Assembly: GCF_016722925.1 (NCBI RefSeq) | Contig: NZ_JAEQNC010000002.1 | Span: 310,001-374,000, forward strand | Direction of reading: 5' to 3' | Length of the DNA stretch: 64,000 bases | From: Phytoamicus setariae | Lineage (GTDB): Bacteria; Pseudomonadota; Alphaproteobacteria; Rhizobiales; Rhizobiaceae | Part shown: positions 41,892 to 49,040 of the stretch, in pieces | How positions within the stretch are numbered: position 1 is the stretch's first letter | Layout of the letters: every line of letters begins with the position of its first letter | Notes under the pieces: generated by a model | What the model saw: only the letters and a program-made list of their open reading frames with translations | Database searches by the model: none | Told to the model about the DNA's origin: nothing | Position numbers and translations under genes: made by a program

Positions 41892-42497
41892 TTACCCGCC
41901 GATTCCGCAGACCTTCATCCCGCCATCTGCCGGCCAGTCCTTGAAGGGGATGAACTCCGCGCCGGCGGCGATTTGAAGCTTGATGTGTCCACCCTTGCCG
42001 TCGGGCTTGCTGGCGATGCCCTTGCCCGTCAAGACATTGAGGTCGCAGTCGCCGCTGCTGTTCAGATCGAGCGTGTCGTAGTAGCTGTAGGTGAAGCCGG
42101 CGACGACAAAATCGGTGTTGCGATACGCCAGCGTCAAGGTCTGGCTCCAGCGGTCGCGCCCGATGGTATCGTTGCGCGTTGTCACTTGTATCGACCCGTT
42201 CGGCAGGGCTTTCAGGCTGGGTTCCTGGCCAAAAAATGTATCCGGGCCTGCGCGACCCCAGACCTTGCCGCGGGCAACGCCCGCAGGTTTGAGATACTGC
42301 CGCTCGGGGTCCTGAAGGAAGAAATGCAGGTCCATATCTTCCTGGCCGCGGCTCAGCAGTGCCAGATCTTCGGCACCGTCCTTGTTCCAATCACCGGTAA
42401 TGGCCGCGACAAAGCTTGCTGCGTCGATCTGCTCGGCTGCGGCGGGTGACGCCAACAGGCAGGCTAGGGCAATGGCTGCACCGGGTGGCTTCAACAT
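41892..42497 (-). CDS. Secreted protein with VCBS/FG-GAP-like motif
   Basis: The 201-residue protein has a signal peptide (IALACLLASPAAAEQ), then a calcium-binding-loop-like AITGDWNKDGAEDLALLSRG typical of FG-GAP/VCBS repeats, DTLDLNSSGDCDLNVLTGKG as a second such loop, and a C-terminal FKDWPADGGMKVC. It is periplasmic or secreted; the function is unknown. Start ATG 42497. Its promoter lies in the 148-base gap shared with the small SOS gene. Confidence 0.72.
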   Translation of the reverse strand: MLKPPGAAIALACLLASPAAAEQIDAASFVAAITGDWNKDGAEDLALLSRGQEDMDLHFFLQDPERQYLKPAGVARGKVWGRAGPDTFFGQEPSLKALPNGSIQVTTRNDTIGRDRWSQTLTLAYRNTDFVVAGFTYSYYDTLDLNSSGDCDLNVLTGKGIASKPDGKGGHIKLQIAAGAEFIPFKDWPADGGMKVCGIGG

Positions 42498-42589
42498 GGG
42501 CGATTCCCTTCCGTCTTCACAATGGCGCGATAAAGCCAAGTCGGCATCCCGCAATCAATACTTTTTTAACCTTGTATCCGTGGATATCG

Positions 42590-42618
42590 TTGACACAAGA
42601 ACAATAATAGAACATAAA
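42590..42618 (+). promoter_or_regulatory. Sigma70-type promoter of the 28-residue membrane protein gene
   Basis: TTGACA at 42590-42595 and CATAAA at 42613-42618 are separated by exactly 17 bases, giving a predicted transcript start near 42625 and a leader of about 20 bases. The -10 element lies inside the LexA half-site array. Confidence 0.6.
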
Positions 42619-42634
42619 AAGAACATTAGAGAAC
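42599..42634. promoter_or_regulatory. Tandem overlapping SOS (LexA) boxes
   Basis: Four GAAC half-sites occur at 42599, 42610, 42621 and 42631. The first three are exactly 11 bases apart (GAAC-N7-GAAC-N7-GAAC), giving two overlapping copies of the alphaproteobacterial LexA box (GTTC-N7-GTTC on the other strand); the fourth is spaced by N6. The array covers the -10 region and predicted start of transcription, the expected place for LexA repression. Confidence 0.75.
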
Positions 42635-42645
42635 AGGAGGCGCAA

Positions 42646-42732
42646 ATGACCGATTTTCTACGTGATATGGCAGCATTCACTTCAGTCGTCATGTTCGTGG
42701 CGAGTTTCGCCGTTCTGATGGTATCCCTCTAA
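42646..42732 (+). CDS. 28-residue SOS-controlled single-pass membrane protein
   Basis: The ORF from ATG 42646 encodes 28 residues: polar MTDFLRDMA, then a hydrophobic helix (AFTSVVMFVASFAVLMVSL). A perfect AGGAGG at 42635-42640 is 5 bases upstream. A sigma70-like promoter overlapped by tandem LexA boxes precedes it, and dnaE starts 108 bases after the stop. Size, membrane helix and SOS control resemble SidA of Caulobacter, a 29-residue SOS-induced cell-division inhibitor acting on the divisome; that functional parallel is inference, and I do not claim sequence homology. A longer in-frame reading upstream has no ribosome site. Confidence 0.75.
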   Translation: MTDFLRDMAAFTSVVMFVASFAVLMVSL

Positions 42733-42840: not shown

Positions 42841-45800
42841 ATGGAAAATATCGAACATATTGATGCGCGTTCGGGATTGAGCGACAGCCCGCAATTTGTC
42901 CATCTGCGCTTCCATTCGGCGTTCTCCCTGCTGGAAGGGGCGCTGCCGATCAAGAAAATCATCGCCAAGGCGGCGGCTGATCAACAGCCAGCACTCGGGC
43001 TTGCCGACACCAACAATCTGTTCGCAGCCCTCGAATTTTCCAAGACGGCCTCCGGTGAAGGCATTCAGCCGATCATCGGTTGCCAAATGGCCATCGATTT
43101 CGAGGAGGACGCGGTCGAGGAGCGCGGCGGGCGTCAGACGCAACTGAAGAAGCTGCCGTCGATCGTGCTGCTCGCAGCCACCGCCGAGGGATACCAGTTG
43201 ATGTCCGGAATTGTCAGCCGGGCCTACATGGAAGGCGATGGCCCGGGTACCATCCACGCGAAGATTTCCTGGTTCGGCGAGGCCATGCCGGGACTGATTG
43301 CGCTCACTGGCGCAGCGTCCGGTCCGATAGACATGGCTTTGCGCGACGGCAATGCACATCTCGCGGAGCGCCGGCTGGCGACGTTGCATCGGCTGTTCGA
43401 TGATCGGCTCTATATCGAGTTGCAGCGCCATGGCGCCTACGACCGCAGCCACGAGGCCAAGATTGTCGAACTGGCCTACGGCATGGAACTGCCTATTGTG
43501 GCGACCAACGAGCCGTTCTTTCCGACAGCCGGCGATTTCGAGGCGCACGATGCACTGATGGCGGTGGCGCAGAATTCGCTGGTCTCCGACGAGAACCGCT
43601 TCCGGCTGACGCCAGACCACTATTTCAAGAGCCGCGCCGAGATGGCGGCCCTGTTCGCGGACCTGCCCGAGGCGATAGAAAATACGGTCGAAATTGCCCG
43701 GCGCTGCGCATTCACGCTCAAGACGGTTGCACCGATTCTGCCGCGGTTCACGGGTGGTGCCGCCGATGGTGAGGCTGCCGAGAAGGCCGAAGCCGACGAA
43801 CTTGCGCGGCAGGCCTGGGAAGGCCTGGACCTTCGCCTGAAGGCAATCGGCCTGGCGGATGGTTACACCGAAACGGACTACCGGGAGCGGCTGGAATTCG
43901 AACTCGGGATCATCGAACGGATGAAGTTCCCCGGATACTTCCTGATCGTTGCCGACTTCATCAAATGGGCCAAGCTGCACGATATTCCCGTCGGTCCGGG
44001 CCGCGGCTCGGGCGCGGGCTCGCTCGTCGCCTATGTCTTGACGATCACCGACATCGATCCGCTGCGCTTTTCGCTGCTGTTCGAGCGCTTCCTCAACCCA
44101 GAACGCGTGTCGATGCCGGACTTCGATATCGACTTCTGCCAGGATCGCCGCGAAGAGGTGATCCGCTACGTCCAGGAGAAATACGGCCGCGAACAGGTTG
44201 CGCAGATCATCACCTTCGGATCGCTGCAGGCGCGTGCCGCACTCCGTGACGTCGGCCGCGTGCTGGAAATGCCCTATGGCCAGGTCGACCGCATCTGCAA
44301 GCTGGTGCCTAACAATCCCGCCAATCCGACCCCGCTCTCCAAGGCCATCGAGGAGGAGCCGCGGCTGAAAGAGGAGGCCGAGAAGGAGCCGGTGGTCGCC
44401 CGCCTGCTCGATATCGCCCAGAAGATCGAGGGTCTGTACCGGCATGCGTCCACCCACGCCGCCGGTATCGTCATCGGCGACCGGCCACTCGCCAAGCTGG
44501 TGCCGCTCTACCGGGATCCGCGCTCGGACATGCCTGTTACACAGTTCAACATGAAATGGGTCGAGCAGGCGGGGCTGGTGAAGTTCGACTTCCTCGGCCT
44601 CAAGACCCTGACCGTACTCAAGACCGCTGTGGAATTCACCAGGAAGCGCGGGATCGAGGTCGATCTTTCGGCATTGCCGTTGGACGACGCGCTCACCTAC
44701 GAGATGCTGGCGCGAGGCGAAACTGTCGGCGTGTTCCAGGTGGAAAGTGCCGGCATGCGCAAGGCGCTGCTCGGCATGCGGCCGGACTGCATCGAGGATA
44801 TCATCGCCCTCGTCGCCCTTTATCGTCCGGGTCCGATGGAGAATATTCCTGTCTACAATGCCCGCAAGCATGGCGACGAGGAAATCGAGTCCGTCCATCC
44901 GAAGATCGACTACCTGCTCAAGGAAACCCAGGGCGTTATCGTCTACCAGGAGCAGGTCATGCAGATCGCTCAGGTGCTCTCCGGCTATTCGCTCGGCGAA
45001 GCCGACCTGCTGCGCCGCGCCATGGGTAAGAAGATCAAGGAGGAAATGGACCAACAGCGGGCGCGTTTCGTCGAGGGCGCAATTGCAAACGGTGTGTCCA
45101 AGGCCCAGTCCAACCTGATCTTCGATTTGCTGGCGAAGTTCGCCAACTACGGCTTCAACAAGTCGCATGCGGCGGCTTATGCCGTGGTTTCCTACCAGAC
45201 GGCCTATTTCAAGGCGCACCATCCCGTCGAGTTCCTTGCCGCATCGATGACGCTCGACATGGCCAACACCGAAAAGGTCAACGACTTCCGTCAGGATGCG
45301 GTGCGGCTCGGCATCAAGGTGGTGCCGCCATCGGTGCAGACATCTTTCCGCCGCTTCGAGACGGGCGACAATTGCATCTACTTTTCGCTCGCCGCGATCA
45401 AGGGCGTGGGCGAGGCGGCCGTGGACCACATCGCAGCGGCGCGCGGCGACACACCCTTCGCCAGCATCGAGGACTTCTGCCTGCGCACCGATCCCAAGAT
45501 GATCAACCGGCGCGTCTGGGAAAGTCTGATTTCGGCCGGTGCCTTCGATTGCTTCGGTGTCGACCGTGCCCTGCTGGTCAACGGCCTCGATCGGCTGCTT
45601 GCTTATTCGCAACGCGCCGTGTCCGACAAGGCGAGCGGCCAGAGCGACATGTTCGGCAGTTCTTCTTCCGGTCCGGAAAAAATCTTGTTCCAGCCGGTAT
45701 CGCCTTGGCTCGCATCGGAGAAGCTTCTCAAGGAATTCCAGGTCCTCGGCTTCTACCTCACCGCCCACCCGCTGGACACCTACAGCCATACACTGGCGAA

Positions 45801-46332
45801 ACTGCGGGTGCAGACCTTCGCCAACTTCTCCAACGCGGTCAAACAAGGCAAGGCTCCGGGACGGCTTGCAGGAACCGTCACCAGCAAGCAGGAGCGCAAG
45901 ACGCGCACCGGCAACAAGATGGGCATCGTGACGTTTTCGGATTCGTCGGGCCAGTTCGAGGCTATCATGTTTTCCGAGACGCTTGCCCAATATCGGGACA
46001 TTCTGGAAACCGGCAAATCCTTCGTCATCATGGTCGAGGCGGAAGAACGGCCGGAGGGTATAAGTCTACGGATCCAGAGCGTGCAGTCACTGGAAGAGAA
46101 GTCGGTCCAGATGCAGAAGGCGATGCGGATCTTCCTGCGCGATGCCGCTCCGCTCAAGGTGCTGGGCAGCCATCTCGCGGTCAAAGGAGAGGGGCAGGTA
46201 TCCTTCATCGTCATCAAGGATGACGGCAAGCGTGAAATCGAGGTCGCTTTGCCCGAGCGTTACCGTATCTCGCCGGAGATTGCGGCTGCCATGCGTGCAA
46301 GCCCCGGCGTGGTGGATGTCGAACTGGTCTGA
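42841..46332 (+). CDS. dnaE: DNA polymerase III alpha subunit
   Basis: The replicative polymerase catalytic subunit has 1163 residues. It shows the N-terminal PHP domain (FVHLRFHSAFSLLEGALPIK), the polymerase active-site aspartates (MPDFDIDFCQDRREEVIRYV), RMSGRGSGAG-like GPGRGSGAGSLVAYVLTITD, the KKIKEEMD region, a helix-hairpin-helix and an OB fold near 1000-1080. Length and order match DnaE1, not the shorter error-prone DnaE2. The stop is 2 bases from the convergent L,D-transpeptidase stop. Confidence 0.97.
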   Translation: MENIEHIDARSGLSDSPQFVHLRFHSAFSLLEGALPIKKIIAKAAADQQPALGLADTNNLFAALEFSKTASGEGIQPIIGCQMAIDFEEDAVEERGGRQTQLKKLPSIVLLAATAEGYQLMSGIVSRAYMEGDGPGTIHAKISWFGEAMPGLIALTGAASGPIDMALRDGNAHLAERRLATLHRLFDDRLYIELQRHGAYDRSHEAKIVELAYGMELPIVATNEPFFPTAGDFEAHDALMAVAQNSLVSDENRFRLTPDHYFKSRAEMAALFADLPEAIENTVEIARRCAFTLKTVAPILPRFTGGAADGEAAEKAEADELARQAWEGLDLRLKAIGLADGYTETDYRERLEFELGIIERMKFPGYFLIVADFIKWAKLHDIPVGPGRGSGAGSLVAYVLTITDIDPLRFSLLFERFLNPERVSMPDFDIDFCQDRREEVIRYVQEKYGREQVAQIITFGSLQARAALRDVGRVLEMPYGQVDRICKLVPNNPANPTPLSKAIEEEPRLKEEAEKEPVVARLLDIAQKIEGLYRHASTHAAGIVIGDRPLAKLVPLYRDPRSDMPVTQFNMKWVEQAGLVKFDFLGLKTLTVLKTAVEFTRKRGIEVDLSALPLDDALTYEMLARGETVGVFQVESAGMRKALLGMRPDCIEDIIALVALYRPGPMENIPVYNARKHGDEEIESVHPKIDYLLKETQGVIVYQEQVMQIAQVLSGYSLGEADLLRRAMGKKIKEEMDQQRARFVEGAIANGVSKAQSNLIFDLLAKFANYGFNKSHAAAYAVVSYQTAYFKAHHPVEFLAASMTLDMANTEKVNDFRQDAVRLGIKVVPPSVQTSFRRFETGDNCIYFSLAAIKGVGEAAVDHIAAARGDTPFASIEDFCLRTDPKMINRRVWESLISAGAFDCFGVDRALLVNGLDRLLAYSQRAVSDKASGQSDMFGSSSSGPEKILFQPVSPWLASEKLLKEFQVLGFYLTAHPLDTYSHTLAKLRVQTFANFSNAVKQGKAPGRLAGTVTSKQERKTRTGNKMGIVTFSDSSGQFEAIMFSETLAQYRDILETGKSFVIMVEAEERPEGISLRIQSVQSLEEKSVQMQKAMRIFLRDAAPLKVLGSHLAVKGEGQVSFIVIKDDGKREIEVALPERYRISPEIAAAMRASPGVVDVELV

Positions 46333-47720: not shown

Positions 47721-49016
47721 TCAGGGTGCGTGGCCGCGCTTGCCCTTGCCGAACGTATAGCCGGTCTCAATGCTCTTGGTGCCGAATTTGTTGCGCAGCG
47801 CATCCATGGCCGCTTCTGCGGCGGCGCGCTTGCCGGCGCCCTCGTCGATCAGACTCGGCGGGTCGGCCTGTCCGGCGTCGGAAAGATCGGTCACGCCAAT
47901 GCCGATCAAACGGTACCGCGTGCCATCGATTTCCTTCTCCAGCAGCGAAAGCCCTTCGCGGAAAATCCGGTCTGCAAGCTGCGAAGGGGCGTCCAGCCTG
48001 CGGTTGCGCGTGCGTGATTTGAAGTCGGCGGTTTTCAGTTTCAGCACCACCGTGTGGCCGGCGATCGCCGCTTTCTTCAGCCGGTGCGACACCTGCTCGG
48101 AAAGCGCCCTGAGCGGTGAAATCAGGTCTTCCGGGCGGCTGTAGTCCTCGAAAAAGGTCGTCTCGGCGGAAACGCTCTTGGCCTCATCGTTCAGGTGAAC
48201 CTTGCGTTCGTCCATGCCGCGGGCGAGGTTGAAGAGCCGCTTGCCCATGATGCCGTAGCGGCGCATCAGGTCGCCTTCCTCCATCACCTGCAACTGGCCG
48301 ATCGTTACGATCCCGTCCCTCTCGAGCGTGGAGGCAAACGCCTTGCCGACGCCCCAGATTAGCGTCACTGGTTTGGGTTTCAGGAATTCGACCGCTTCGG
48401 CTTCACCGATTACGGAAAAGCCGCGCGGCTTGTTCATGTCCGAGGCCACCTTGGCGAGGAACTTGCAATAGGACAGGCCGACGGAGACGGTAATTCCCAC
48501 CTCTTGTTGGACACGCAGCGCAAATCTCGCAAGCGTCAGGGCCGGTGTTGCGTGGTGCAGGCGCTCGGTGCCGGCCAGATCGAGGAATGCTTCGTCGATG
48601 GAAAGTGGCTGCACCAGTGGCGTCAGGTCGTGCATCATCGAACGGATCTGGCGGCCGACCCGGACATACTTCTCCATATCGGGCTTGATGACCACGGCGT
48701 TCGGGCAAAGGTCCAGCGCCTTGAACATCGGCATGGCGCTCTTGACGCCGTGGATTCGCGCCACATAGCAGGCGGTCGAGACCACGCCGCGCTTGCCGCC
48801 ACCAATAATGACGGGCTTGTCGGCAAGGTCGGGATTGTCGCGTTTCTCGACTGAGGCATAGAAAGCGTCGCAGTCGATGTGGGCAATAGTGAGCCGGTCA
48901 AGCTCCTGATGGTGCAGCAGCCTAGGGCTGCCGCATTTGCTGCAGCGCGTCCTGCCCGCGGCAGCGGGCGCAAGGCAATCGCGACAAAAGCCCGGATATG
49001 TCGGATGCGTTGCCAT
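47721..49016 (-). CDS. dinB: DNA polymerase IV (Y family)
   Basis: Error-prone translesion polymerase of 431 residues. The catalytic motifs are [14 protein letters not shown] and [11 protein letters not shown]; the little-finger domain follows residue 260. The N-terminus adds a zinc-ribbon-like element (CRDC ... CSKC, residues 11-30) before the palm, as in other rhizobial homologues. ATG 49016 is 10 bases from a canonical SOS box, so the gene is probably LexA-repressed. Confidence 0.94.
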
Positions 49017-49025
49017 TGGGGACCG

Positions 49026-49040
49026 GAACAAAAGTTGAAC
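49026..49040 (-). promoter_or_regulatory. SOS (LexA) box of dinB
   Basis: On the dinB coding strand the sequence reads GTTC-AACTTTT-GTTC, an exact match to the alphaproteobacterial LexA consensus GTTC-N7-GTTC. It ends 10 bases before the start codon. Confidence 0.85.

Follow-up and report, generated by a model that had tools for sequence, protein, structure and literature searches.

A micropeptide gene directly upstream of dnaE1 in Phytoamicus setariae is a likely LexA-controlled orthologue of Caulobacter sidA

A 28-residue open reading frame located directly upstream of dnaE1 in the 64,000-nucleotide stretch of Phytoamicus setariae DNA analysed here (the window) is, in our judgement, likely to be an orthologue of Caulobacter sidA, which would be repressed by LexA and would stall FtsW-dependent septation during the SOS response. 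SidA is an inner-membrane SOS protein of 29 aa that binds FtsW (PMC4211646). The coding frame, the layout of operator and promoter, and the common place and descent with a Caulobacteraceae peptide are supported by sequence; LexA binding, induction by damage and inhibition of division would be expected by analogy with Caulobacter, and insertion into the membrane, FtsW as the target and co-transcription with dnaE1 are predicted.

The putative promoter TTGACA (42590-42595)-N17-CATAAA (42613-42618) occupies positions 42590-42618 of the + strand. Three GAAC half-sites at 42599, 42610 and 42621, spaced in 11-bp steps (42599-42624, + strand), form two overlapping GAACN7GAAC boxes that lie over this promoter and constitute a putative LexA operator, the box being of the alphaproteobacterial type (GTTCN7GTTC / GAACN7GAAC). 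A fourth GAAC (42631-42634, + strand), at a 10-bp spacing from the third, is possibly no operator half-site, since in many kin it belongs to the leader GAACAGGAGG beside the Shine-Dalgarno sequence. The latter, AGGAGG (42635-42640, + strand), lies five bases 5' of ATG 42646, where the frame of the SidA-type micropeptide MTDFLRDMAAFTSVVMFVASFAVLMVSL begins (42646-42732, + strand; 28 codons, stop at 42730-42732). The peptide has a polar N-terminus followed by a single uncharged hydrophobic segment, with a maximal 15-residue hydropathy of 2.67, and thereby resembles SidA in its length of about 29 aa and its one predicted transmembrane segment. On the same strand, 108 bp 3' of the ORF, starts dnaE1 (42841-46332, + strand), assigned to the replicative DNA polymerase III alpha subunit by NF004226 above cut-off. 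The promoter, the four half-sites, the frame with its ribosome-binding site and the position just before dnaE had all been listed in a preliminary description of this DNA, and each was found where it had been placed. No terminator between the micropeptide and dnaE1 was found on the + strand by a consensus scan, and both genes probably share one transcript. The micropeptide had no match in NCBIfam, and the Pfam family DUF3953 was rejected as a candidate, its match being sub-threshold (E 0.015, 15.5 bits vs a cut-off of 22). A divergent 220-aa ORF (41892-42554, - strand), possibly encoding an exported protein, was without match in Pfam or NCBIfam at E up to 1.

Single GAACN7GAAC boxes are not rare in this genome: five were counted in the window vs 2.2 expected, and the genome-wide total was 160 vs 169 for the reversed pattern, so that whole-genome box counts by themselves are no evidence of regulation. 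The combined patterns are unusual, both the triple GAAC array and the arrangement TTGAC-N3..8-GAACN7GAAC being present once in the window with 0.01 expected.

The frame and its operator were then considered in kin. When 61 genomes were searched with the micropeptide (E up to 10), 24 were matched, comprising 9/9 genomes of the genus (source genome included), 13/28 of other genera in the family and 2/24 of other families in the order. In one congener, whose assembly is 86% complete (G001), a single-base gap close to the start breaks the micropeptide frame. Comparison of the window with 7 in-frame congeners revealed 32, 6 and 72 differences at codon positions 1, 2 and 3, respectively, and the median dN/dS was 0.18 (68 of 78 pairs, with the misframed locus L017 included). 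Judged by these substitution patterns, the micropeptide ORF is a real gene whose amino-acid sequence, and not its translation alone, is under selection. For the promoter count, 23 of the 28 loci returned by the micropeptide search were used; those left out were L029 and L035 (distant from dnaE and without a box), L033 (the additional copy in G005, located where a contig ends), L036 (chance-like, E 0.67) and L032 (G046, E 1.6; upstream of dnaE, with the box absent nearby). A perfect GAACN7GAAC was present within 90 bp of the micropeptide start in 22 of these 23 loci, and a TTGAC or TTTAC within 90 bp 5' of the micropeptide in all 23. The conservation of the frame, the conservation of the GAAC array and a coding-type pattern of synonymous change, which the preliminary description had proposed to look for in related genomes, were thus all observed. 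Of the 23 loci, 22 have dnaE downstream of the micropeptide, the distance ranging from about 56 to 533 bp.

Several of these loci deserve separate mention. The exception to the dnaE linkage is L026 (1501-1584, G034:C1), in which a SidA-type peptide with its promoter and LexA-type box stands 5' of carB (NF003671, above cut-off). In G005:C15 the micropeptide occurs twice in near-identical form (L012 and L033), one of them where the contig ends, a duplication that may stem from the assembly. SidA-like peptides also occur at two loci away from dnaE. One, a second peptide of this kind, MRDLLHDIASFVAVSTFIATFAVWAGYLAEKV (L029:1501-1599, G024:C27), is without a LexA box, overlaps the end of the upstream ORF and has an exonuclease VIII-like gene (phrog_412) and a phrog_1273 gene as neighbours, which gives it prophage-like surroundings. 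The other, beginning MPDLIRDLASFVVIVAFVVGVAVVLPDL... (L035:1501-1641, G007:C43), adjoins an ORF with matches to phrog_7035 and, more weakly, to the terminase-like phrog_2666, and itself matches phrog_8218 weakly (E 0.0015). Neither the micropeptide nor the L035 paralogue had a match in the phage record collection.

The region upstream of dnaE was also surveyed independently of peptide similarity. At the level of the order, 39 kin genomes, most of which had given no peptide match, were searched for dnaE; it was present in 38, of which 30 loci were read. A perfect box was present in 15 of them, and 14 passed a relaxed rule asking for a box plus an ORF, although among these 14 L334 represents the L031 peptide read from an internal start, L348 is unlike the family and the box of L340 is imperfect. 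In L329 and L343, two of the 15 box-bearing loci, no suitable ORF accompanies the box, which speaks against the box-plus-ORF rule being perfect. At the level of the class, a profile search matched 156/385 genomes at E up to 10, by their E-values mostly by chance; since five weak matches lay just upstream of dnaE (G432, G421, G063, G298 and G383), a dnaE-anchored survey was begun. The dnaE gene was found in 371/385 genomes, and 89 upstream regions were taken (29 search loci and 60 fetched later), which are not a random sample because all came from the better-scoring part of the list; two of them span just 150 and 211 bases, and the genomes include some close kin. A GAACN7GAAC on the dnaE strand was present in 29 of the 89 regions, the other 60 being without a perfect box. 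All 29 box regions contained, 12-90 bp past the box, an ORF of 24-60 codons that has a hydrophobic segment and follows a Shine-Dalgarno sequence, and 100 shuffles of all 89 regions produced 0.98 boxes on average and zero box-plus-ORF cases. The rule was formed after viewing the 29 search loci; in the 60 regions not used for forming it, it held in 14/14 cases, two of which (G063 and G298) had given earlier weak peptide matches. In 25 of the 29 loci a TTGAC-like element preceded the box by no more than 12 nt, vs 5% at random positions. From these counts, the order TTGAC, box, a spacer of about 30 bp, Shine-Dalgarno, peptide and dnaE occurs far beyond the family. A ranking against 501 decoys offered weak additional support, with AUC values of 0.945 (54 Caulobacteraceae-type peptides) and 0.885 (29 class peptides), family members having been left among the decoys and one seemingly unrelated ORF having scored E 7e-5.

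A Caulobacteraceae set was located with a PopZ probe; dnaE was found in 55/60 genomes and 30 loci were read. In 25 of the 30, dnaE is preceded by a 29-31 aa peptide that contains the motif [RHKY][DEN]xx[AS][LFA] (20 are exactly 29 aa; an example is MARIARETLALASVVGFVWMMCSVAYLAA); the box is perfect at 19 of the 25. Family peptides occur in records of Caulobacter segnis, Phenylobacterium, Brevundimonas and Asticcacaulis. The C. segnis ORF, which has 30 codons and not 29, was matched in 72/75 genomes of the genus Caulobacter (the genus of G465) at E up to 1, and in 60/60 of the more complete ones. Among 30 loci read from the Caulobacter search, dnaE was present in 29 and the peptide in all 29; a box within 100 bp of the peptide start was perfect in 13/29, imperfect in 16/29 and found in 29/29 when one mismatch was allowed. 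In a set of 80 named loci for which 420 bases upstream were inspected, 39 had a hydrophobic small ORF with a Shine-Dalgarno sequence, some of them outside the family, and 48 had a box in either orientation; five records titled Rhodobacteraceae or Paracoccaceae bacterium had neither the ORF nor the box in those 420 bases.

Several lines connect this peptide with SidA. The sidA locus is CCNA_02004 (PMC11034885), the CB15 tags of dnaE1 and recN are CC1926 and CC1983 (PMC1839093), and the NA1000 tag of recN is ccna_02062 (PMC12700426). The offset of 79 that we infer from the two recN tags would place dnaE1 no more than about two tags away from CCNA_02004, so that a position beside dnaE1, observed in the window, in Caulobacteraceae and in C. 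segnis, is implied by the tags for sidA as well. On the basis of length, locus tags and close relatives, the 29-aa Caulobacteraceae peptide upstream of dnaE is most probably SidA itself. Its relationship to the rhizobial peptides was apparent from an hhalign comparison of the two profiles (probability 91.6%, E 8.3e-7 for one comparison, 21 gapless columns from the Met), the rhizobial one consisting of 19 rows, of which one includes inferred residues. Scored with the rhizobial matrix, and relative to block shuffles in which the polar and hydrophobic blocks were kept, 15/17 peptides reached p at most 0.01; the weaker ones were the C. segnis peptide (p 0.07, not significant) and L056 (p 0.046). 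Intermediate peptides such as MTNFLKDFLALSSVVGVLWAVTVWSAIVGSALT (L290) bridge the rhizobial and Caulobacteraceae ends, which differ in that the C-terminal half of the rhizobial peptides is without the FVWMM..C stretch of the Caulobacteraceae ones. The preliminary description had only likened the micropeptide to SidA, and the comparison carries further than it claimed: the place, the promoter layout and the N-terminal pattern are common to the micropeptide and the Caulobacteraceae 29-aa peptide. As far as sequence comparison can tell, both the orthology with SidA and the operator of the micropeptide are well supported.

Other genes of the source genome have similar boxes. GAACATAAATGGAAC is found upstream of lexA, and GAACATAACAAGAAC upstream of an ImuA-like gene (G000:C12:218512), whose ImuA match is below the family cut-off; a second DnaE is encoded about 2.4 kb 3' of this box (G000:C12, 220952-223942). 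In the window, dinB (47721-49031, - strand) has GAACAAAAGTTGAAC at 49026-49040, overlapping the listed TTG start, and translation may in fact begin at the internal ATG 49016, which would make dinB a likely SOS gene. By their sequence, the predicted boxes of the micropeptide are of the same type as those of lexA, the ImuA-like gene and dinB. The stretch upstream of recA, read by eye, has no perfect box and only GAACAAATAGAGTAC. A further instance, GAACATAAATAGAAC at G000:C32:17358, coincides with the start of an ORF resembling tetracycline-efflux MFS transporters, the 25 matches listed all being below cut-off.

A counterpart with a possible experimental record exists in Sinorhizobium meliloti. 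In strain Ak57, the unannotated MADFVRDLAAFASMSLFIVSISVIALGL is flanked by an ABC transporter ATP-binding gene and dnaE and is preceded by TTGAC and three GAAC in 11-bp steps. Its similarity to the micropeptide is weak alone (tblastn E 3, 46% identity), and it was identified as the counterpart by position and promoter. The Ak57 record which carries dnaE (CP090106.1, L322) is titled plasmid pSymB; at a length of 3.7 Mb it probably represents the chromosome, mislabelled. Ribosome profiling of S. meliloti had disclosed sORF25, a translated and non-annotated small ORF in the 5'-UTR of dnaE1 (PMC10117765), in a paper whose main text contains no occurrence of LexA or SidA. The peptide MADFVRDLAAFASMSLFIVSISVIALGL, matched by position alone, fits sORF25; if the two are the same, sORF25 would independently attest to translation and to a transcript shared with dnaE1.

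That the micropeptide immediately precedes dnaE in all but one of the 23 kin loci might also be expected of a regulatory uORF or leader peptide which tunes dnaE1 and has no function in trans, and the authors of the S. meliloti study suggested uORF roles for at least some small ORFs of the class of sORF25 (PMC10117765). We regard this explanation as unlikely. A pure leader role sits poorly with selection on the amino-acid sequence and with the placement, in one genome (G034, L026), of promoter, box and peptide in front of carB; the distance to dnaE is moreover variable, the leader matched no Rfam family at gathering score (the best hit was a snoRNA, sub-threshold, E 4.5), and the Caulobacter gene at dnaE1 appears to be sidA, whose product acts in trans. 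A very unlikely alternative is an SOS-induced membrane toxin of the TisB/DinQ kind that depolarises the membrane instead of acting on the divisome, with which the micropeptide would share its similar size, single hydrophobic segment and SOS-type promoter; DinQ is an SOS-regulated toxic single-transmembrane peptide (PMC3567139). Its place and descent in common with SidA-type peptides argue against this possibility, as does the fact that no antitoxin RNA family was seen in Rfam. Residues 8-28 of the micropeptide are also uncharged, unlike TisB. That the ORF and the GAAC array arose by chance, or as a by-product of the dnaE promoter sequence, could be argued from how common lone GAACN7GAAC boxes are in the source genome, but is extremely improbable: frame, start, Shine-Dalgarno sequence and operator are conserved together, which already contradicts chance, and the triple array would be expected 0.01 times in the window.

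The reading we consider likely remains that of a sidA orthologue: repressed by LexA, the gene would encode an inner-membrane micropeptide with one helix and would have kept its ancestral place directly before dnaE1. According to this model, RecA assembled on damaged DNA would lead to the cleavage of LexA and free the GAAC operator that lies over the promoter; the derepressed micropeptide would be produced at once by means of its strong ribosome-binding site, enter the inner membrane and block the activity of the septal synthase complex (FtsW with FtsI/FtsN) for as long as the damage is unrepaired. As no terminator was found before dnaE1, derepression would probably raise transcription of the replicative polymerase too. 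In a broader proposal, to which we give somewhat better than even chances, the LexA box, the SidA-type micropeptide and dnaE1 would make up an ancestral alphaproteobacterial checkpoint operon, in which one promoter halts septation and raises the polymerase; SidA would be the founder of a family spread over the class and liable to be missed by annotation, with box-less copies in some prophage-like regions. SidA is treated as a Caulobacter protein in the papers cited here as far as their accessible parts go, and within the literature covered (titles and the starts of abstracts, with subscription papers mostly outside) neither a SidA orthologue beyond Caulobacter nor a LexA box on a rhizobial dnaE1 micropeptide was described. 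The conserved gene at a fixed place offers a named SidA candidate for rhizobia and other genera. Its reading as SidA-type would supply a role for an sORF detected by Ribo-seq and predicts co-transcription of the replicative polymerase with a division stop, and the natural variation across the class provides a large set for mapping how FtsW is recognised by a helix of fewer than 30 residues.

Among known systems, TisB and DinQ of E. coli, of about 27-29 aa, are SOS-induced inner-membrane peptides, as the micropeptide would be; they differ in acting on the membrane itself. YneA (B. subtilis), SosA (S. aureus) and ChiZ (M. tuberculosis) are small membrane division inhibitors induced by SOS or damage; their likeness to the micropeptide is one of description, and YneA and ChiZ differ in having a LysM domain (PMC13396833). 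According to the same 2026 study, YneA binds FtsW TM7, SidA, SosA and ChiZ are predicted with low confidence to bind FtsW, and models that are not of high confidence put SidA at FtsW TM7 as well (PMC13396833). DidA of Caulobacter, a small inhibitor of division that resides in the membrane and responds to DNA damage, resembles what is predicted for the micropeptide and differs in its 71 aa, its binding to FtsN and its independence from SOS (PMC4211646). The S. meliloti sORF25 is alike as a small ORF in the dnaE1 5'-UTR, with a triple GAAC array at the corresponding Ak57 locus. The closest resemblance is to SidA, which like the micropeptide would be a one-helix peptide of about 29 aa encoded, by its tags, beside dnaE1, and which is controlled by LexA.
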